Below are positions 698 through 11,193 of a DNA stretch of 64,000 nucleotides, piece by piece. Position numbers and translations under genes: made by a program. This DNA comes from Alphaproteobacteria bacterium (lineage in GTDB: Bacteria; Pseudomonadota; Alphaproteobacteria; JAVJVX01), in NCBI GenBank assembly GCA_040220875.1, contig JAVJVX010000005.1, forward strand, positions 709,665-773,664, given 5' to 3'. Within the stretch, counting starts at the first letter, position 1; each line of letters begins with the position of its first letter. A model generated the notes under the pieces. That model had not been told where the DNA came from. It ran no database searches and saw only the letters and a list, made by a program, of their open reading frames with translations.

Positions 698-1168
698 ATG
701 GCGAAAATCGCATTTGTCCTGAATGGCGAGGAGGTCGCGCCCGAGGTCGCGCCGGATACGCCATTGCTCTGGGTGCTGCGCGACGCGCTCGGGCTGACAG
801 GCACCAAATACGGTTGTGGCATCGCGGATTGCGGGGCCTGCACCATACATGTCGACGGGGAAGCGAGGCGATCCTGCGTGCTGCCGATCTCGGCCGTCGA
901 GAACGCCACTGTCACCACCATCGAGGGCATCGGGAAGGGAGGCGCGGGCGACGGCGCGCATCCGCTTCAAGCCGCCTGGGTCTCGGCCCAGGTCCCGCAA
1001 TGCGGCTATTGCCAATCGGGCATGATCATGGCCGCGGCCGCGCTTTTGCAGGAGAACCCCCAGCCGAGCGATGCGGAGATCGACGACGCGATAACGAATA
1101 TCTGCCGCTGCGGCACCTATGGACGGATCCGGAAGGCCATCCATCTCGCCGCGGAAGGTGCCGAATGA
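698..1168 (+). CDS. iorA: (2Fe-2S)-binding small subunit of an IorAB-type molybdenum hydroxylase
   Basis: A 156-residue electron-transfer subunit of a two-subunit molybdenum hydroxylase. The plant-type [2Fe-2S] cluster ligands are C40, C45, C48 and C60. The second, C-terminal cluster uses C102, C105, C136 and C138 (QCGYCQSG and [10 protein letters not shown]). This two-cluster arrangement and length are standard for isoquinoline 1-oxidoreductase alpha subunits and related aldehyde or N-heterocycle dehydrogenases. The gene ends in an ATGA overlap with the molybdopterin subunit, so the two are translated together. There is no FAD subunit, as expected for Ior-type enzymes, which usually pass electrons to a cytochrome or other membrane acceptor. 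The substrate cannot be read from sequence. Confidence 0.88.
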
Positions 1169-3474
1169 GGGACCGCGAAGCGTCCACCGGCAAACTCGCC
1201 ACAGGCAAATTCGCGGCCGAAGGAATCACCCGTCGGCGCGTCCTCGTCTCGGCCGCGGTCGCGGGCGGCGGCCTTCTCGTGGGCCTGCCGATGATCGCGC
1301 GCGCCGCCGGCGCCGATCATCCCTTTGCGGCAAGCGCCAGACAGGGCGAGCATGTCTTCAACCCCTGGATCAAGATTTCGGCGGCCGGTGACGTCACGAT
1401 CGCGGTGCCCCGTGTCGAGATGGGCCAGGGGGTCTATACGTCCCTGCCGCTGCTCGCGGCCGAGGAGTTGGACGCGGACTGGGCGCGCGTGCATTTCGTC
1501 CAGGCGCCGGTGGACAACGTCTATGCCAATGTGACGCTGTTCATGGAAGCGATCCGCTTCCGCCCGGAAGGCGAGGGTATCCTGGCCGACGCCGTGCGCT
1601 GGGCGACGCAAAAAGTCGCCCGGGCGCTGGGAATTCAGGGAACCGGCGGCAGCACCAGCATTCGCGAGGCTTACGATCCGATGCGCCGTGTGGGGGCGGC
1701 CACGCGCGAGATGCTGATCGCCGCGGCGGCGCGACGCTGGGAAGTCCCGCGGGCCGAGTGCCGGGCGGAGAAGGGCACGGTCACCCATGGCGCGACGGGC
1801 CGGCGACTTGGCTTCGGCGAGCTGGCAGCGGATGCGGCGCTGACCGATCCGCCGGAACATGTGCGACTCAAGGAGCCGGCCGAGTGGCAATTGATCGGCA
1901 GTGATGTGCCCCGTCTGGACCTGCGAGAGAAAACCGACGGACAGGCGATTTTCGCACCCGATATACAGGGAGACGGCATGGTCTATGGCGCGGTCCGTAC
2001 CGCGCCGCGCTTCGGCGCCAAACTCAAATCCTTCGACAAGAGCGCCATCGCGGGCAAGCCCGGGTTTATCGATGTGGTGGAAATCCCGCGCGGCATCGCG
2101 GTCGTCGCCGACAACACCTGGCGCGCCAGCCAGCTCCTCGCGGCACTGCCGGTGATCTGGGATGACACGGGCGCACTCGAGATGTCGAGCGACGAAATTT
2201 TCGAGAGCCACGACCGCGCTATCGCCAGCGGTGACGCGCATGTCTTTACCGACAGGGGCGACGCGCCCGACCAACTGGCCGGCGCGGGGACGGCAAATGT
2301 GTTCAGCGCCACCTATCGGCTGCCCTATCTTGCCCATGCCTGCATGGAGCCGATGAATGCGACGGCGCTCTATGCCGACGGGGCACTGACACTCTGGACC
2401 GGCAATCAGAACCCGAACCTGATGCGCAACGCGGCCGCCGACGAGATCGACATCGATGCCGACCGGGTGACCGTCGAAACCCCGTTTCTCGGCGGCGGGT
2501 TCGGCCGGCGGTCCGAGCCCGACGCGGCGCGCCAGGCCGCGCGGGTGGCGAAGGCGCTGGCCGGGCGGCCGGTCAAGCTGTTCTGGGACCGGGAAGAGGA
2601 TATGCGTCACGATACCTATCGCCCGGCCGGAACCTGCCGCATGACGGCCCGTCTCGACGGGGACGGGCGGCCCGTCGCCTGGCATCATCGCAGCGCCGGC
2701 CAATCGGTGCTGGCCGATTACATGAGCCGGATCCGTCCGGGCGCCCCGCTGCCCACCGCCGATGCGACCCAGGTCGAGGGGGCCGAAGACATCGCTTACG
2801 CCATCCCCCATATCCGGGTGGAACATGTGACGACCGAACCGCTCGTGCCGGTGGGCTGGTGGCGGAGCGTGGGGAACTCGCTGAACGCGTTTTTTGTCGA
2901 GAGTTTCATCGACGAGCTGGCCCATAACGCGGGGGCCGACCCCTATGAATATCGCCGCGCCCTTCTCGCGGACCGGCCCCGTGATCGCGCGGTTCTCGAT
3001 CTGGTGGCGAAAAAATCCGGCTGGGGCGATAAACCGCCCCCCGGACGCGGGCGCGGGCTGGCCGTGCACAAATCCTACGAGAGCTACGTGGCCCAGGTCG
3101 TGGAGATCTCGGTGACGGATGGCGAGATACGGTTGCACAAGGTGACCTGTGCCGTCGATTGCGGCACCGTCGTCCATCCCGACACGGTGGTGGCCCAGAT
3201 GGAGAGCGCCGTCACCTTTGGCGCGACGGCAGCGCTTTTTGGTCGCATCACGATCGATCAGGGAAGGGTTGTCGAAGGCAATTTTCCCGATTATGACATG
3301 ATCCGCATGGAGACAATGCCGGAAATCGACGTCCATCTCGCGCCGACCGGGGGCGATCCGGGCGGCATCGGCGAGGCCGGGACCCCGGCGATCGCGCCCG
3401 CGATCGCCAACGCGGTCTTCGCGCTTACCGGCAAACGCGTGCGGGAGCTGCCGTTCGCCATCGCGGACATCTAG
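1165..3474 (+). CDS. iorB: Molybdopterin-binding large subunit, IorB / xanthine dehydrogenase family, Tat-exported
   Basis: A 769-residue catalytic subunit paired with the preceding iron-sulfur protein. The ATG at 1165 overlaps the upstream stop (ATGA). A longer upstream reading of the frame is only a shadow of iorA. Residues 21-48 form a twin-arginine signal ([15 protein letters not shown] and a hydrophobic core ending in A-x-A), so the folded holoenzyme is probably exported to the periplasm. The molybdopterin loop GGGFGRR and the C-terminal [10 protein letters not shown] with the catalytic base E737 are both present. Known relatives oxidise isoquinoline, aldehydes or other small carbonyl and N-heterocyclic compounds; the exact substrate is open. 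Confidence 0.88.
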
Positions 3475-3518: not shown

Positions 3519-4628
3519 ATGCGGATCGGTCTGCCTAAGGAAATCAAGACTCACGAATACCGGGTAGCCATTCTGCCCGATGGCGTGCGCGCGCTGATCG
3601 CGGACGGCCACGAGGTCTTCGTCGAAACCGGCGCCGGCGCGGGCGCCGGCTACGAGGACGGGACCTATACCGAGGCCGGCGCGACCATCTGCGCCGATGC
3701 GGGGGCGGTCTTCGAGGCGGCTGAAATGATCGTCAAGGTCAAGGAACCCCAGGAGGGCGAGATCGCCCGCCTCGGCCCGCGACATGTGCTTTTCACCTAT
3801 CTTCACCTGGCGGCCGATCGCAGCCTGACGGAAAATCTGATGCGTTCGGGCTGCACCGCCGTCGCCTACGAGACGATCACAAGCCCGGCCGGCAACCTGC
3901 CGCTTCTGGCACCGATGAGCGCGATCGCCGGGCGCCTTTCGGTGCAGGCCGGGATCCGGTTCCTCGAAAAGCCGGAAGGCGGCCCCGGCATCCTCCTGGG
4001 TGGCATCGCGGGTGTCCGGCCGGCCAAGGTGGTCGTGATCGGCAGCGGCGTCGTCGGCAAGAACGCCATAGATGTGGCCGTTGGGCTTGGCGCGTCGGTC
4101 GTCGTGATCGACATGTCCTTCGACCGGCTGGCCGAGTTGCAACAGCGCTACGGCGGCCGCGTGGTGACCCGCCACTCATCGCCTTCGGTGGTGAAGGAGG
4201 AATGCGCGGACGCCAACCTTATCGTGGGCGCGGCCCTCGTGCCGGGCGCGGCGGCCCCGCGGATCGTCACGCGCGAAATGCTGCGCGGCATCAATCCGGA
4301 CGCGTTGCTGGTCGATGTGTCCATCGATCAGGGTGGCTGCTTCGAAACGAGCCGGCCCACCACCCACGCCGCCCCCATCATGGAGGCCGAAGGGCGTCGA
4401 CATTACGCGGTCGCCAACATGCCGGGCGCGGTGCCCCGCACTGCCTCACACGCGCTGTGCGAGGCCAGTCTGCCTTACGTCCTGCGTCTGGCGAAGGACG
4501 GGGTAGAGGGCGCGATGACGCGAGACCGGCATTTTCAGAACGGGCTTAACGTGCAGAAGGGCGCGCTGACGCTCAAGCCGGTGGCTGATCTTTTCGGCCT
4601 GGACTATACGCCCGCTTTCGCCGCCTAG
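3519..4628 (+). CDS. ald: Alanine dehydrogenase
   Basis: A 369-residue enzyme for reversible NAD-dependent deamination of L-alanine to pyruvate and ammonia. The N-terminus MRIGLPKEIK, the EYRVAILPDGV segment, KVKEPQ, TYLHLA with the catalytic histidine, and the NAD fold VVIGSGVVGKNA are all characteristic. The length is normal for the family. A clear GAGGAG ribosome binding site lies at 3504-3509. The gene stands 44 bases after iorB in the same direction and could be cotranscribed. Its stop codon shares the palindrome CTAG (4625-4628) with the stop of the convergent Rieske oxygenase gene. Confidence 0.95.
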   Translation: MRIGLPKEIKTHEYRVAILPDGVRALIADGHEVFVETGAGAGAGYEDGTYTEAGATICADAGAVFEAAEMIVKVKEPQEGEIARLGPRHVLFTYLHLAADRSLTENLMRSGCTAVAYETITSPAGNLPLLAPMSAIAGRLSVQAGIRFLEKPEGGPGILLGGIAGVRPAKVVVIGSGVVGKNAIDVAVGLGASVVVIDMSFDRLAELQQRYGGRVVTRHSSPSVVKEECADANLIVGAALVPGAAAPRIVTREMLRGINPDALLVDVSIDQGGCFETSRPTTHAAPIMEAEGRRHYAVANMPGAVPRTASHALCEASLPYVLRLAKDGVEGAMTRDRHFQNGLNVQKGALTLKPVADLFGLDYTPAFAA

Positions 4629-5830
4629 GCCTCGACGGCGGCCCGCACCTGGTTGTGGAAATGACGGACGATGTGCTCCTCGTCCGAAAGGTGGAAATGC
4701 GTCTTGGCACCCGATGAGATCACTGACTGGATCTTTTCGTGCGTGAACGCGTCTTCCATCAGCGTGTCCCTGATGCCGCATTTGCCGAATTCCTGGGCGA
4801 AGACCTGCCCGGCGTTCTGCGGCTCCGGATAATACAGGCGGATTTCCCAGACTGACCGGTCCACTGCCTCCGGCCATATGTTGTAGGTGAAATACGTCCC
4901 TTCCAGCAGGCCGATGAAAAAATTCGGGAAGATGAAATAAAGGTCGAATGCGCCGTGCCATTTCGGCCCGCGCCGTTCGCCGTCCTCCCCGCGCTTGACC
5001 GAGAAGGCGTCGAAACTGTTGGAGCCGAAGCGGCCGGCGATCTGTGTCGTCTTCGACGGTTTGTATCCCTCGGGCGGACTCGAGGAGACGACGCCGTGGG
5101 GGCCGTAGGCGATCAGCGCCGCGTGGCGGAAATCCTGCTGAGCCGTCGCCGCCGATTTGGCCAGCGTCTTGTCGTGCAGATAGGGCAGGTGCCAGCCTTC
5201 CTGCTGCGCCTCGCAGAGCGTCTTCCAGTTGACGTTTTCCCGGGGGCGGTAGGTATAGCGCCCGCGCATGGCGTCGAACGGGTAACCGTCGATGGTGGGC
5301 GTGACCGGTGCCATAAATTCGGCGAGGCCCTGTTTCGGGGTATCGGCGAGGTTGACGAAGATGAAGCCCTGCCAGACGTCGGTGTGAACCGGAGTCAGGC
5401 CATTCGCGGATTTGTCGATATCGAAGAAGCTTCCCTCATCCGATATGTGGACCAGCCGACCCCTGTCGTCATAGACCCAGCCGTGGAATTTGCAGGTAAA
5501 TCCGCCCCGGCACCTGCCCTTTTCGTGCCAGGCCACGGGATTGCCGCGATGGGCGCACATATTGTGAAATCCGCGGATTTGGCCGTCCTTGCCACGGACG
5601 ATCAGGATGGAAGTATGCGCCACACGCAGGTCGCGGACGAGATAATCGCCCGGCTCCGGCATTTCCTCGACGCGGCCCATGTTGATCCAGCCCGCGCGGA
5701 AAATCTTTTCCCGCTCGGCCTCGAAAAAATCGGGCGAGACATAGGCGTCCAGACCGACCGGGGCCGTTCCCTGGCCCGGGTCCTTGCGATGCCAGGTGCG
5801 CGGCGCCCCGCTGGAAAGCTGTCCGTCCAT
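4625..5830 (-). CDS. Rieske non-haem iron oxygenase, alpha subunit (copy 2 of operon)
   Basis: A 401-residue ring-hydroxylating-type oxygenase. The Rieske [2Fe-2S] ligands are C92-A-H94 and C113-K-F-H116. The mononuclear iron site contains H214 and H219 in EGWHLPYLHD. A GGGAGGA ribosome binding site lies inside the end of the small upstream gene, whose stop is only 3 bases from this ATG. The enzyme needs a reductase, and none is encoded nearby. It could act on an aromatic ring, a methyl or ammonium group, or a ring N- or O-alkyl group; Rieske alpha subunits do not reveal substrate reliably. It belongs to the operon that follows the MarR regulator. Confidence 0.88.
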   Translation of the reverse strand: MDGQLSSGAPRTWHRKDPGQGTAPVGLDAYVSPDFFEAEREKIFRAGWINMGRVEEMPEPGDYLVRDLRVAHTSILIVRGKDGQIRGFHNMCAHRGNPVAWHEKGRCRGGFTCKFHGWVYDDRGRLVHISDEGSFFDIDKSANGLTPVHTDVWQGFIFVNLADTPKQGLAEFMAPVTPTIDGYPFDAMRGRYTYRPRENVNWKTLCEAQQEGWHLPYLHDKTLAKSAATAQQDFRHAALIAYGPHGVVSSSPPEGYKPSKTTQIAGRFGSNSFDAFSVKRGEDGERRGPKWHGAFDLYFIFPNFFIGLLEGTYFTYNIWPEAVDRSVWEIRLYYPEPQNAGQVFAQEFGKCGIRDTLMEDAFTHEKIQSVISSGAKTHFHLSDEEHIVRHFHNQVRAAVEA

Positions 5831-5833
5831 ATC

Positions 5834-6196
5834 CTATTCCTCCCTTACCCTCTCGCCCGACAGATCGTGCACGGGCACGAACCGCTCGATCGGCATGCCG
5901 TACGGGTGCTCCGGTGACTCGAACAACTCGACCGCGTTCGCCGCTTCGGGCAGGGCGAGGGCGAGATCGAGCAGCACCTTGTCGGCACCCGCGATCTTGT
6001 CGAGTGGCTTTTCATTGAGATAGTCGAGCACAGCGTCGATGCGCGCGTGCATCGCATCGTAGAAGGCGCGGATTTCCGCCAGGGAGCTGGAGAGCCTTTG
6101 GCGATGACGCCCGCGTTCGGTCGGCTCGGCCCAGTCGAGAAAGGGGCTCAGATCCTCGAAGGCGGTGGGCAGGACTCTTTCGGTCGGTGCCGCCAT
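5834..6196 (-). CDS. Uncharacterised 120-residue protein between two Rieske oxygenases
   Basis: The gene is real: a perfect AGGAGG ribosome binding site precedes its ATG, and it fits between its neighbours with 3-base and 11-base gaps. The product is small, acidic and probably mostly helical, with long stretches lacking proline and glycine (about residues 30-90). It has no signal peptide, membrane segment, cysteine cluster or metal motif, so it is neither a ferredoxin nor the usual NTF2-fold beta subunit, as far as I can tell by eye. Its place between two alpha subunits suggests an accessory, assembly or regulatory subunit. I do not recognise the family. Confidence 0.8.
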   Translation of the reverse strand: MAAPTERVLPTAFEDLSPFLDWAEPTERGRHRQRLSSSLAEIRAFYDAMHARIDAVLDYLNEKPLDKIAGADKVLLDLALALPEAANAVELFESPEHPYGMPIERFVPVHDLSGERVREE

Positions 6197-6207
6197 GTCC
6201 GCGCCTC

Positions 6208-7443
6208 CTATTCGGCCGCCCGTTTCATGCCGGAAAGGTCGTCGCCATAGGATTTGTACCGCTTGACCAGCCAGCGATTGAACTGGGAGAGGGTTTCCTC
6301 CTTGGGCGCATACCGGGTCCGCCCGGCGAAGCGCGAGCGCAGCCCCTTATGGGTCAGTGTATTGGCGACCGTATCCTGGTCGTTGAAGACCGAGACACCT
6401 TCGACCGTGGCCCCGAAACGCATGTCGAAATCGGGCAGCCGCATGGTTTCCTTCGGCACCAGGGCACCCACCTGCAGCGTGAGGCTGTTGGCGCCTTGCG
6501 GGCAGATCACATAGAAAAATACGCAATCCGGCTGCGCGCCGAAGAACAGATTGGGCGCAACGGTGGCGAACATCACGCGCTTGCGCTCTTTTTCCGTCAG
6601 CGTCTTGATCACCGGCATCAGACATTTATTGGCGATATTGAAGCCGCCATCGAGCTCGACGAATCCGGTCGGGTGATAGATCGCGCCATCGTCGTCCTCG
6701 AGCCATTCATCAAAACTGGCGAGCCGCGACGGCGCGAAGTCGTGCGGACCCTTGTGCAGGTACCAGGTGTGATAGGGCTCGATCGCGTTTTCCTGCATGA
6801 ACTTCCAGTTCCACGGATTGTCGGCCCACTCGACAAGGGGCGGCGTCACGAGATCGGCCAGATGGTGGTTTTCCACCTCCTTCGAGAGCCTCTTCAGCCG
6901 GGAAGCGAGCGGCCTGGCCTGGCCGTCCATGTTCATGAAAATGAAGCCGTTCCAGACTTCTGTCCTGATCTGCGGCAAACAGGCCTTCTTCTGCAATTCC
7001 TCGAAAGGCAGCGTCGCATCCATTTCCGGCGCGCTGACCAGTTCGCCGTCGACATTGTAGCTCCAGCCATGGAACGGACAGGTAAAGACATCCGTATTGC
7101 CGCGCGCCTCGCCCAGCACATGGCCGCGATGGGCGCAAACGGCAGACATGACACGCACCTCGCCGTCCTTGCCGCGCAGGACCAGCAGCGGGTCGTCATT
7201 CATGGTGATCGAATAATAGTCGCCCGGCTTGGGGATGAGACTGTGATGGCCGAGACACACCCAATCGCGATCGAAGATCGCACGCTTCTCGAACTCGAAC
7301 CATTCTTCCGAAGTATAGCAGTCGGGTGGAAGCGAAATGGCCTTGTCCACGCCCTGCGCCGAGGGGTCGAGCGCGGCGAGGATTTCCCGCAGGTGCGGCG
7401 TCAGCGGCAAATCGGGCAAGGGTGTTGCCTTGGTCTCGGTCAT
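6208..7443 (-). CDS. Rieske non-haem iron oxygenase, alpha subunit (first gene of operon)
   Basis: A 411-residue Rieske oxygenase. The start at 7443 is chosen because a GAGGAGG ribosome binding site sits just before this ATG; a longer start at 7476 lacks one. Rieske ligands are C103-A-H105 and C122-P-F-H125, and the iron site shows H225 and H230 in EPYHTWYLHK. It differs strongly from the second Rieske protein outside the motifs, so the two are not a recent duplication. The pair may be two oxygenases of one pathway or a heteromeric enzyme. A palindromic operator-like site lies about 60 bases upstream, and the MarR regulator gene is directly upstream in the same direction. Confidence 0.88.
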   Translation of the reverse strand: MTETKATPLPDLPLTPHLREILAALDPSAQGVDKAISLPPDCYTSEEWFEFEKRAIFDRDWVCLGHHSLIPKPGDYYSITMNDDPLLVLRGKDGEVRVMSAVCAHRGHVLGEARGNTDVFTCPFHGWSYNVDGELVSAPEMDATLPFEELQKKACLPQIRTEVWNGFIFMNMDGQARPLASRLKRLSKEVENHHLADLVTPPLVEWADNPWNWKFMQENAIEPYHTWYLHKGPHDFAPSRLASFDEWLEDDDGAIYHPTGFVELDGGFNIANKCLMPVIKTLTEKERKRVMFATVAPNLFFGAQPDCVFFYVICPQGANSLTLQVGALVPKETMRLPDFDMRFGATVEGVSVFNDQDTVANTLTHKGLRSRFAGRTRYAPKEETLSQFNRWLVKRYKSYGDDLSGMKRAAE

Positions 7444-7557: not shown

Positions 7558-8151
7558 TCAGCCGGCCTTTTTCTGCGCCCGGCCCACCAGATCGACGCTT
7601 GCCACGTGGGAGCGGTTCAGGGCGATCCGCCGGGCCCCCTGATCATAGAGGCCCGTCATCACCATGAGCCGGCTCATGGTATCGCCCAATACCGCCTCGG
7701 GCACGCCCAGCCCGTCGAGCAGGTCCACCAGCACCTCGCGACGAAGCTGGGCGTAGTGGTCCGTCGCATCGCGCCCGCGTTCGGTCACTTCATAGGCCGT
7801 CTGGCGCTGCGCCACGCCCGGGACCTTTCGGACCAGCCCGGCCCGTTCCAGCTTTCGCAGCCCGTACTGGACATTGGCCTGATCCTCGCGATGGAGGAAT
7901 TTTGCGATTTGCGAGACGCTTTTTGGCATATCGCGGAACCGCACCACCTGCAGGACCGAGATATCGGACCAGGTAAGCTCCTCCCCGCTGATATAGGCGT
8001 TCAGCTCGCTGACCCAGCGGCGGAACGATTCCGCCACGTGGTGCAGGGCAAACTCGAAGTCGGTGAGCGCTGCCTCCGCATCGCTGCCCGAAAGATGGGA
8101 ATCCCGGTGCAGCGACAGCAGGGAGGCCTCTTCGCTCGGCGCATCCGCCAT
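7558..8151 (-). CDS. MarR-family winged-helix transcriptional regulator
   Basis: A 197-residue regulator. The ATG at 8151 is preferred over one 11 codons upstream because an AAAGGA ribosome binding site precedes it, and because the longer start would read through tandem repeats. The middle of the protein (about residues 60-125) has the MarR winged-helix layout: helices around TWSDISVLQVVRFRDMP, a recognition helix near REDQANVQYGLRKLERAGLV, and a wing followed by AYEVTERGRDATD. It is longer than typical MarR proteins, with extra N- and C-terminal segments. It probably represses the Rieske operon just downstream through the palindrome at 7504-7520, with a pathway compound as inducer. Confidence 0.82.
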   Translation of the reverse strand: MADAPSEEASLLSLHRDSHLSGSDAEAALTDFEFALHHVAESFRRWVSELNAYISGEELTWSDISVLQVVRFRDMPKSVSQIAKFLHREDQANVQYGLRKLERAGLVRKVPGVAQRQTAYEVTERGRDATDHYAQLRREVLVDLLDGLGVPEAVLGDTMSRLMVMTGLYDQGARRIALNRSHVASVDLVGRAQKKAG

Positions 8152-8162
8152 GGGTGGTCCTT

Positions 8163-8283: not shown

Positions 8284-8910
8284 TCATCCAAAATCGGATG
8301 GCCGGTCCAGGTCACGCAAAATACCGGCGCCGCGGCCCGGAATTTCCACTATTTCCGCCCCGTGAGCCTCGAGAATGGGCCGGGCACCCCGGTCCCCCGC
8401 AAGCCCGGCGAATTCGGCCGACAGGCGGCAGGGGAACAAAACCGGATGTCCCCGCCGGCCGGCATACACCGGTATGACGATGGGCGCGGGCGAGGTCTGG
8501 CGGAAAACCGCCATCATCTCCGCCAGAACCCCGCTGTCGATGAAGGGCATGTCGCCGAGACAAAGGAAGAACGCCTCGAGGCCCCTGTCGCGCCGGCAGA
8601 GCGCCGCCACGCCCGCCTTCAGCGAATGGGCCATGCCCTTGCCGTGGTCGGGAGCGTGAACGAAGGCGACGTCCAGCCCGGCCAGGGCCTCCTCGATCCG
8701 CGCCGCCTGATATCCCGTCACCACCATGACCGGGCCCGGCACCGCCGCCTGGACACCCTCGACGACCTGCCGGATCAGGGGCCTGCCACCGAGCCGGGCG
8801 AGCAGCTTGTTCTCCCCGCCCGTCTCTGCCGCAAAACGGCGCGAAGATCCGGCCGCGAGGATCAGGGCGCCGAACTGCCCGGTCGGCCCGGCGCTGTCCG
8901 GCGGACTCAC
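8284..8910 (-). CDS. mocA: Molybdenum cofactor cytidylyltransferase-like NTP transferase
   Basis: A 208-residue nucleotidyltransferase of the MobA/MocA family. The N-terminal nucleotide-binding loop LILAAGSSRRF is followed by a lysine (ENKLL) typical of this fold, and later LCLGDMPFID matches the metal-binding aspartate region. In molybdenum hydroxylases of the xanthine dehydrogenase family the cofactor is usually the cytosine dinucleotide form, made by MocA. Its place as the last gene of the operon supports a role in loading the CoxL-like subunit. It starts at GTG in a GTGA overlap with the preceding gene. IspD- or GlmU-like roles are unlikely in this context. Confidence 0.82.
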   Translation of the reverse strand: MSPPDSAGPTGQFGALILAAGSSRRFAAETGGENKLLARLGGRPLIRQVVEGVQAAVPGPVMVVTGYQAARIEEALAGLDVAFVHAPDHGKGMAHSLKAGVAALCRRDRGLEAFFLCLGDMPFIDSGVLAEMMAVFRQTSPAPIVIPVYAGRRGHPVLFPCRLSAEFAGLAGDRGARPILEAHGAEIVEIPGRGAGILRDLDRPSDFG

Positions 8911-9608
8911 GCGATCCCCGTGCGCAGCACCTTGACCGCCTCGGCCAGAATGGCGACGGCGATTTCGGCCGGCGTCACGGCGCCGAGCGGAAGCCCGACG
9001 GGGCCATGAATGCGGCCGATTTCAGCATCGCTGAAGCCAAGCCGCGCGAGGCGTTTGTTGCGCGAGACGGCCGAACGCCGGCTGCCCAGCGCGCCGATAT
9101 AGAAGGCCGGGCTGCGGAGCGCCGCCGCGAGCGCCGGCTCGTCCAGCTTGGGATCATGGGTCAGGGTGATGACCGCGGTGCGGCTGTCGGGGGCCAGCCC
9201 GGGCAGGACCGTCTCCGCCCATTCGGTAAGGATGCGGGTCTCGGGGAACCGCTCGGGCGTGGCGAAGGCCGTGCGGGGATCGATCAGCGTCACATCGAAA
9301 CCGGCCAGCCGGGCCATCGGGACCAGCGCCTGGGCGATATGTACCGCGCCGACGACGATCATGCGCAGGGCCGGGCCGTAGACCTGCAGAAAAAACGCGC
9401 CCTCGCCGGTTTCGACATGCCGGTTCTCGCGCGTTGCCTGGGCCGTCTCGGCCGAGCTCACGACGTCATCCGACAACACGAGATCCCCGGCGACCCGCGC
9501 GCCGCCCTCGATCACCGCCTGCGCGCCCGAGGCGAGATCCGTGACAAGCACCACCTCTCGGCCTTCGCGCGCCGCCCGGTCGAGAAGCTCGAGGATCGCC
9601 AGCTTCAT
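8907..9608 (-). CDS. XdhC-family maturation protein (Rossmann-domain member)
   Basis: A 233-residue protein of the XdhC/CoxF family, which helps insert the sulfurated molybdenum cofactor into xanthine dehydrogenase-type enzymes. The second half carries a Rossmann-like segment (MIVVGAVHIAQALVPMARLA followed by DVTLIDPR), then TLTHDPKLDEPAL and YIGALGSRRS, all typical of the family C-terminal domain. It ends in a GTGA overlap with mocA and begins six bases after the small CoxI-domain gene. In some bacteria these two domains are one polypeptide; here they are two adjacent genes. Confidence 0.85.
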   Translation of the reverse strand: MKLAILELLDRAAREGREVVLVTDLASGAQAVIEGGARVAGDLVLSDDVVSSAETAQATRENRHVETGEGAFFLQVYGPALRMIVVGAVHIAQALVPMARLAGFDVTLIDPRTAFATPERFPETRILTEWAETVLPGLAPDSRTAVITLTHDPKLDEPALAAALRSPAFYIGALGSRRSAVSRNKRLARLGFSDAEIGRIHGPVGLPLGAVTPAEIAVAILAEAVKVLRTGIA

Positions 9609-9614
9609 CGCCGT

Positions 9615-9953
9615 CTAATCCACCGGCTCGACGAAAACACGGATGCGCCCGCCGCAGGGCAGGCCCACCTCGAAGGCCTCGTTGGCCGCGACGCCGAAGC
9701 TGAGGAGCCTGGCTTGACCGGTGCGGATGACCTCGCGCGCTTCGGTAATGACGGCGGCCTCGACGCAGCCGCCCGAGACCGAGCCGTGGAACCGCCCGTC
9801 ATCCGCCACGGCAAGCTGGCTGCCCAGCGGCCGGGGCGAAGACCCCCAGGTCTGGATCACCGTGGCCAGGGCGACGCCACGGCCGGCGCGGCGCCAGGCA
9901 CCTGCCACCGCCAGCGCGTCCTCGTCAAAAAAGTCTCTCTCCCTTGCGCTCAT
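9615..9953 (-). CDS. XdhC/CoxI-domain protein (N-terminal type)
   Basis: A 112-residue protein made only of the XdhC_CoxI domain. ATVIQTWGSSPRPLGSQLAV, GSVSGGCVEAAVI and LPCGGRIRVFVEP are the hallmark segments. Together with the following gene it rebuilds the two-domain XdhC maturation factor for molybdenum hydroxylases. It sits 28 bases downstream of the coxE-like gene in the same operon. Length is normal for the single-domain form. Confidence 0.85.
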   Translation of the reverse strand: MSARERDFFDEDALAVAGAWRRAGRGVALATVIQTWGSSPRPLGSQLAVADDGRFHGSVSGGCVEAAVITEAREVIRTGQARLLSFGVAANEAFEVGLPCGGRIRVFVEPVD

Positions 9954-9981
9954 CCTCGACTCCGCCCTGTGCCGGTCACCG

Positions 9982-11193
9982 TCAGGCCGCCTGGCGACGG
10001 GATCCCCGGGGTCCCGACCGGCTAAGGGCCGTCACCAACGCCGCCAGGCTGGTCATATTATGCACCGGCCGGAAGTCGGTGACATAGGGCCGGATCGCCC
10101 GCGCCCCCCGGGCCATCAGCGCGTAGTCCGTATTACGCAGATGGGGATTGAGCCAGACGAGCCGCCGGCTGGCGCGGCGCAGGCGCGCCATCTCGGCCGC
10201 GAGCTCGCCCCCCGGATCGCGTTCGAGCCCGTCCGTCACAAGCAGCACCGTGGCCCCGCCGGTGAGCACGCGGCGCGACCAGTCGAAGTTGAAATCATGC
10301 AGCGATGGGCCGATTCGCGTGCCGCCCGACCAGTCGCGTACCTTTTCGGCCACGTCAGCCAGCGCCGTGTCACCGTCCCGCTGGCGGAGCATGCGGGTCA
10401 CATTGGTCAGGCGCGTCCCGAACAGAAAACAGTGCACGTTCCCGCGTGCCTGGCCGAGACGATGCATGAAGCGCAGCATCACACGGGAATAGTTGCTCAT
10501 TGAGCCGGATATATCGATGAGCGCGACGAGTGGTGGCGGCGCAGCGATGGGCGCGCGCCGGACGAGCCGGATGACATCGCCGCCCGTCCGGTGGCTGGCC
10601 GCCAGGCTGGCGCGAAGATCGACGCGCGGGCCTTCGGCCTGCACGCGAAAACGCCGGCGCCGGACGAGATCGTCCGGCAGGGCGAGACGTCGGATCGCGG
10701 CCTCCGCCTCGGCCAGTTCGGCCGCCGACATCTGGCCGAAATCCATGTCACCCGCCACGTCGCGCGCCGAATAGGTGGGGCGGGCCTGAAGCCGCGGCGT
10801 ATCGCCATCCCCCTCGTCACCGGACCCCGGGCGCGGTTCGATCGTCTCGCTACCGGGTTTTCCCGCCGGCCGTTCCCCCGCCGCCTCCAGCGCCTCGGCG
10901 AGCCGACGGGACAGGCGGGCCCCGCCGCCGTCCGCCAGGGGCGCTTCGCCGCCACGATCGAGCGAACGCCAGAACAGGCGGAACGCCTCGTCGAAGATCG
11001 CGTGCCGGTCCTGGCGGTCCACGAAGACAGCGTGCAGCGCCCAGTAGGCATCGTCGCGGCGCCGCAGACCGACCGCCGACAGCGCCTCCATCCCCCGCGC
11101 CACCTCACCGGTGCCGAGCGGGAAGCCGGCCGCGCGCAGAAGACGCGCGAAATGCATCAGATTGAGCCAGAGCCGCCCACCGGCGCCCGACAT
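9982..11193 (-). CDS. coxE: CoxE-like von Willebrand factor A domain protein
   Basis: A 403-residue vWA protein. The metal-ion-dependent adhesion site appears in VALIDISGSMSNYS (the D-x-S-x-S pattern), with supporting residues in the C-terminal half (TDGLERDPG). In carboxydotrophs CoxE works with the CoxD ATPase in post-translational assembly of the Mo active site. The start codon overlaps the coxD stop by one base (TGATG), showing coupled translation. The N-terminal 170 residues are charged and less conserved. Function here is inferred from operon context and family. Confidence 0.85.
   Translation of the reverse strand: MSGAGGRLWLNLMHFARLLRAAGFPLGTGEVARGMEALSAVGLRRRDDAYWALHAVFVDRQDRHAIFDEAFRLFWRSLDRGGEAPLADGGGARLSRRLAEALEAAGERPAGKPGSETIEPRPGSGDEGDGDTPRLQARPTYSARDVAGDMDFGQMSAAELAEAEAAIRRLALPDDLVRRRRFRVQAEGPRVDLRASLAASHRTGGDVIRLVRRAPIAAPPPLVALIDISGSMSNYSRVMLRFMHRLGQARGNVHCFLFGTRLTNVTRMLRQRDGDTALADVAEKVRDWSGGTRIGPSLHDFNFDWSRRVLTGGATVLLVTDGLERDPGGELAAEMARLRRASRRLVWLNPHLRNTDYALMARGARAIRPYVTDFRPVHNMTSLAALVTALSRSGPRGSRRQAA

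Follow-up and report, generated by a model that had tools for sequence, protein, structure and literature searches.

The 120-residue protein encoded at positions 5834–6196 on the minus strand of the window (the whole stretch of 64,000 nucleotides analyzed here) is, judging from sequence and gene order, probably a non-catalytic partner dedicated to a single clade of Rieske ring-hydroxylating oxygenase (RHO) alpha subunits; it would bind the alpha as an extra subunit needed for assembly, solubility or activity. Rieske oxygenases play a central part in degrading pollutants and natural products. If a whole clade of alphas has a conserved third protein, the way these enzymes are cloned and annotated would change. 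The small gene is labeled 'hypothetical protein' in all annotated plasmid pairs (n = 14) and would be omitted from expression constructs. Its product is probably an undescribed working part of degradative Rieske oxygenases; no description was found in the literature as covered by open-licence PMC papers, a scope in which a subscription paper could be missed.

Gene context in the window

The small gene is an open reading frame with an ATG start and, as the initial annotation had pointed out, a ribosome binding site. The latter (AGGAGG, 6204–6209, minus strand) lies 7 nt ahead of the ATG and overlaps the stop codon of the upstream gene. This upstream gene is an RHO alpha gene at 6208–7443, and the small gene starts 11 nt past its stop. 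On the other side, 3 nt separate the end of the small gene from the ATG of an RHO alpha gene at 4625–5830 (401 residues), also on the minus strand like all genes of the run; the 3-base spacing in the initial annotation is right if it refers to this gap. Both flanking genes match Rieske (PF00355) and Ring_hydroxyl_A (PF00848) over cut-off, which agrees with the earlier description of a 120-residue protein between two Rieske alphas. For the alpha at 4625–5830, these matches reach 53.8 bits (cut-off 20.3) and 92.5 bits (cut-off 24.9), respectively. Following the usual RHO motifs, its Rieske ligands are assigned as C92, H94, C113 and H116, the bridging residue as E211 and the iron ligands as H214, H219 and D360. 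Third-position GC is 0.81 in the small gene and 0.80 and 0.79 in its two neighbors. A winged-helix regulator gene at 7558–8154 on the minus strand (HTH_27 over cut-off, MarR models just below) is a possible regulator of the gene run. The oxygenase genes are flanked at 698–3471 and 8284–11193 by molybdenum-hydroxylase-type (Fer2_2, MoCoBD), MobA-like and CoxE-type VWA genes.

An unnamed and probably helical protein family

The protein had been described as unlike known beta subunits and ferredoxins, and the profile searches bear this out. The best matches of the 120-residue protein are not below E 0.1 in Pfam and E 0.14 in NCBIfam, all under cut-off. Among 38 members of the family, the best E-values are 0.015 in Pfam (MitMem_reg, in two of the 38) and 0.043 in NCBIfam, and no family of either collection matches more than two members. 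The RHO beta domain (PF00866) is absent from all 38 at E up to 1, and at the same limit no GST family appears among their Pfam matches. Profiles of 11 and of 38 members, compared with PDB sequences, gave nothing better than E 0.2. Assignment to the DinB superfamily, which has a conserved metal-binding His, was rejected: the small protein reaches 13.5 bits against a Pfam cut-off of 24.8 and has no conserved His.

Conserved cluster ligands of a Rieske- or plant-type ferredoxin are absent from the family: in 44 sequences, no Cys or His reaches 75% conservation, nor does any Asp or Lys. The set conserved at this level comprises L, P and F residues, W22, R30, R34, F45, Y46, A48 and E90. Across 11 aligned members, L16, W22, R30, R34, L75 and E84 are invariant, while over the 44 paired members W22 and R30 are invariant and L9, P10, F13, L16, R34 and L75 are conserved at 93–98%. 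A poor single-sequence structure prediction (mean pLDDT 52.7) places helices at residues 17–20, 25–34, 39–62 and 71–93; the protein is probably helical.

The family is rare outside certain groups, since a single-protein search of 58 relatives gave, besides the window's genome, a match in one genome only (G027), and a phylum sample of 398 genomes gave a match in the window's genome only. Viral contig scans with a consensus-like family member and with the window alpha returned no relative. A contig scan with the window protein gave five loci, which in frame are four ABC-transporter ATPase-like proteins and one TetR-like regulator, as judged by eye with the aid of a weak OppD match; none was counted.

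Linkage counted from the small gene

The window's genome (2.54 Mb, 99% complete) contains ten copies of the small gene, of which the nine others are 33–42% identical to the window copy. All ten lie 25–267 nt from an RHO alpha domain, and the share of the genome within 600 nt of an RHO alpha is about 2.6%. With 37 Rieske-domain and 23 Ring_hydroxyl_A matches, the oxygenase load is heavy for a genome of this size. In 385 alphaproteobacterial genomes, 36 small-gene matches occur in 17 genomes (the window's included), and every one of them adjoins an alpha, two of these alphas being cut by contig ends. The initial annotation had asked whether homologues adjoin Rieske genes and whether they fall into an unrelated known family; all 36 adjoin an alpha and no family is matched. 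The two orders with matches provide 16 further ones, 12 of them adjacent to an alpha. Of the rest, one is separated from its alpha by a single gene (L141/L161) and another lies where its contig stops (L154), while two are frame-broken remnants for which no alpha was found nearby (L155 and L156). At L161 (11222–14275), an alpha, a gene that looks amidohydrolase-like by eye and the small gene follow each other in the same direction; this is the one intact pair observed with an intervening gene.

The plasmid search returned 19 records with a small-gene match, of which 13 were looked at and 12 have an adjacent alpha. The other six records (H4–H7, H9 and H10) match over the same part of the query and with the same identity as H8 (L060) and are presumed copies of it. 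The same alpha–small pair occurs on plasmids of Beta- and Gammaproteobacteria and of one Rhodococcus. On the hexachlorocyclohexane-degradation plasmid pSRL1 of Sphingobium indicum B90A (L060, 3977–4400), the small gene lies near linC with no alpha within 4 kb. The ORF that follows starts behind AGGAG and runs for about 10 codons into a sequence that we take to be an IS6100 end, and an IS6100 gene is annotated. The small gene lacks an alpha here perhaps because the insertion sequence cut the next gene; that this truncated gene was an alpha is our guess.

Two further loci are of note. A stretch of the window's genome (L018, C9:350001–366000) holds an alpha–small pair at a GC of 0.53, compared with 0.61–0.66 in the other eight stretches, and is possibly an acquired island. 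In Sphingomonas sp. NBWT7 (L065, 2726–3971), a clade-type alpha beside an intact small gene is annotated as two ORFs, one Rieske and one catalytic.

Linkage counted from the alpha

To avoid picking loci by the small gene, the same 385 genomes were also searched with the alpha at 4625–5830, taking the best four candidates per genome among the matches listed, so that further alpha paralogues may be missed. Among the matches listed, at least 180 bits are reached by exactly the 16 other genomes that have the small gene, and the top genome without it scores 136 bits. Loci were fetched for 30 of the 82 matching genomes among those listed (one per genome, the window's included). The small gene is present in 17 of the 17 fetched loci with an alpha-model E of 1e-97 or lower and in none of the 13 with more distant alphas (model E 2e-54 to 6e-78). 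All told, 54 of 57 clade alphas have an adjacent small gene, the class genomes being counted among the matches listed: the class genomes apart from the window's contribute 25 of 26, the window's genome 10 of 12, and the plasmids 19 of 19 places in 16 records. The single exception among the first of these (G223:C210) stops 228 nt short of the end of its contig, with no small gene visible. The two exceptions in the window's genome, C9:77848 (L079/L136) and C5:489562 (L080/L137), lack a small gene to a distance of about 6 kb; these orphan alphas might use another small-gene copy in trans. The other 11 of the 23 alphas in this genome are the second alpha of the window and ten without a small gene (0/10).

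The training set of the alpha model consisted of 12 alphas from these loci, among them the second alpha of the window, and the scores for alphas of the window's genome are therefore inflated. The score gap between carriers and others is not clean everywhere: G091:C46, a clade alpha truncated at the start of a contig, reaches 2.5e-81, and L078, which is not in the clade, reaches 5e-89. The latter score is probably due to the presence of the second alpha of the window, a near relative of L078, in the training set.

Phylogeny of the alphas and the likely cognate partner

A maximum-likelihood tree with 54 alphas places the carriers in one group of 47 rows (98/97 support), made up of 45 carriers and two non-carriers from the window's genome. 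Some branches are long, and the rooting serves for drawing only. The tree omits exact duplicates and alphas with an aligned length of at most 280 residues, so that four of the 23 from the window's genome are missing from it; with model scores of 3e-79 and weaker, these four are placed with the non-carriers. The alpha G223:C210 and the plasmid loci L125–L131 are not in the tree; their place in the clade is based on model scores of 4e-97 or better. The second alpha of the window (6208–7443) lies outside the carrier group, next to L078, a locus without a small gene, and groups with alphas of the window's genome that have none.

The alpha at 4625–5830 is the only one of the window in the carrier clade, and is therefore most likely the partner of the small protein; the second alpha probably is not. 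The initial annotation had suggested a new accessory subunit or a heteromeric oxygenase of two different alphas. An accessory protein tied to Rieske alphas remains well in line with these data, whereas the two-alpha heteromer is unsupported because the alpha at 6208–7443 is outside the clade. The window, G091 (L040/L135) and L020 have same-strand alphas on both sides of one small gene; at the other loci compared, there is one alpha per small gene. L020 is a tandem of alpha–small–alpha–small, in which either alpha has a copy of its own behind it.

Shared history and gene arrangement

Pairwise distances of the alphas and of the small proteins are correlated (r = 0.70, p = 0.0001; 44 pairs), also within the window's genome (r = 0.67, p = 0.0004; ten pairs). 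This comparison leaves out the second alpha of the window and one member of the G091 alpha pair with a common small gene. We read the correlation as duplication and transfer of the alpha–small pair as a unit rather than as proof of contact. Among the 14 annotated plasmid pairs, seven show an overlap of 1 or 4 nt between the genes. The small gene is downstream of the alpha in 30 of 44 pairs and upstream in 14: its side is not fixed, its company is.

The wider neighborhood varies. A PDR/VanB-type reductase gene is found near the pair in Cupriavidus (L059) and Rhodococcus (L125), while genes for an NTF2-like protein and a Rieske-type ferredoxin occur in Acinetobacter (L064/L130), Azospirillum (L126), Paroceanicella (L068) and Novosphingobium (L131). 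Other loci (e.g., L063, L067, L128) have neither a redox-partner nor an NTF2-like gene in the stretch seen. As the redox-partner genes vary while the small gene stays, the latter is tied to the alpha and not to the redox partner. The residues C92, H94, C113, H116, E211, H214, H219 and D360 are each kept in at least 98% of 44 alphas; with the catalytic residues retained, the small protein is no stand-in for a lost domain.

Proposed role and alternative explanations

The small protein is encoded together with its alpha subunit. It would attach to the alpha trimer in stoichiometric amounts, as an additional helical subunit ('gamma') on which assembly, solubility or full activity of the oxygenase would depend. 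We infer that the two genes are co-translated in the window, that the proteins bind each other in a fixed ratio and that activity requires the small protein. According to a 2025 review, the oxygenase component is most commonly alpha3, alpha3beta3, alpha3alpha'3 or alpha3alpha3 (PMC12445004). In a bolder version, which in our estimate is evenly balanced between holding and failing, the family would represent a third RHO subunit type, an obligate helical gamma in alpha3gamma3 or, with the NTF2-like gene, alpha3beta3gamma3 enzymes, spread from Alphaproteobacteria to Rhodococcus and present in ten copies in one small genome. If so, clade alphas should be insoluble, inactive or uncoupled when expressed alone.

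A stoichiometric alpha-binding subunit is the most economical reading; its main rivals are a chaperone that acts transiently and an effector. An assembly chaperone would bind the alpha only briefly, while the latter folds or receives its Rieske cluster or mononuclear iron, and would not be part of the working enzyme. Gene linkage and overlap would look identical, and the two neighborless clade alphas of the window's genome could be served in trans. Sharing would, however, be easier for a chaperone, yet 54 of 57 clade alphas (among the matches listed) have their own adjacent copy, ten of these in one genome, and the correlated divergence resembles that of an interface kept specific. Ten diverged, individually paired copies would be more readily expected of a specific and lasting interface than of a chaperone common to all alphas; taken with the absence of any Cys or His at the 75% conservation level, they make this explanation rather unlikely in our view. 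Somewhat less probable still is an effector or gating protein, by analogy with MmoB/DmpM, which have a comparable role in diiron monooxygenases, that would transiently regulate substrate entry, coupling or electron transfer. The gene linkage, the small size and the apparently non-catalytic nature of a protein dedicated to the oxygenase component suit such a role; the small gene nevertheless persists with differing redox partners, so that the docking of one redox partner is an unlikely function.

The varied catabolic genes at the loci could point to an independent enzyme or binding protein that acts on the oxygenase's substrate or product and is connected with the alpha by pathway only. However, these pathway neighbors differ among loci while the small gene stays by the alpha, and none of Cys, His, Asp and Lys reaches 75% conservation at any position, which leaves this explanation very improbable. 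Chance neighborhood has one argument on its side, namely the many Rieske and Ring_hydroxyl_A matches (37 and 23) in the window's genome. Against the small share of that genome near an RHO alpha, the adjacency of all 36 class matches and the recurrence of the pair on plasmids of other classes and another phylum, its probability is negligible.

Comparison with known systems

As a small non-catalytic partner encoded beside the alpha, the protein resembles the RHO beta subunit (PF00866), the fold of which is NTF2-like. Unlike the latter, the small family has no PF00866 match and is (weakly) predicted to be helical, and an NTF2-like gene is additionally present at some loci. For the alpha of the window, GbcA is the top-scoring named profile, but at a score of 115 against a cut-off of 670 this alpha is not a member. 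Among its nearest solved relatives are 3vca, 4qup and 6y9c (carnitine monooxygenase), aligned over residues 28–219. We know of no helical partner for GbcA-type, carnitine monooxygenase or other demethylase-type RHO alphas.

A different kind of partner is NdmE, which is GST-like and serves an oxygenase without a Rieske cluster of its own in the NdmCDE caffeine N7-demethylase complex (PMC4408171). In contrast, GST matches are absent from the small family, and the Rieske domain of its alphas is intact. A possible link to substrates comes from Acinetobacter piscicola p38, for which an RHO alpha (gene1684) is listed as up on indole and on skatole, together with a styrene monooxygenase (gene1687), a flavin reductase (gene1688) and a ferredoxin (gene1690) (PMC11434297). 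Genes 1685 and 1686 are absent from the text of that paper. As far as these numbers go, the spacing equals the order at L064/L130 (alpha, small gene, NTF2-like, monooxygenase, flavin reductase, SDR, ferredoxin), and gene 1685 would, from gene order, be the small gene. Breakdown of N-heterocycles would fit the amidase, monooxygenase and ferredoxin genes that lie beside the alpha in the Acinetobacter branch.
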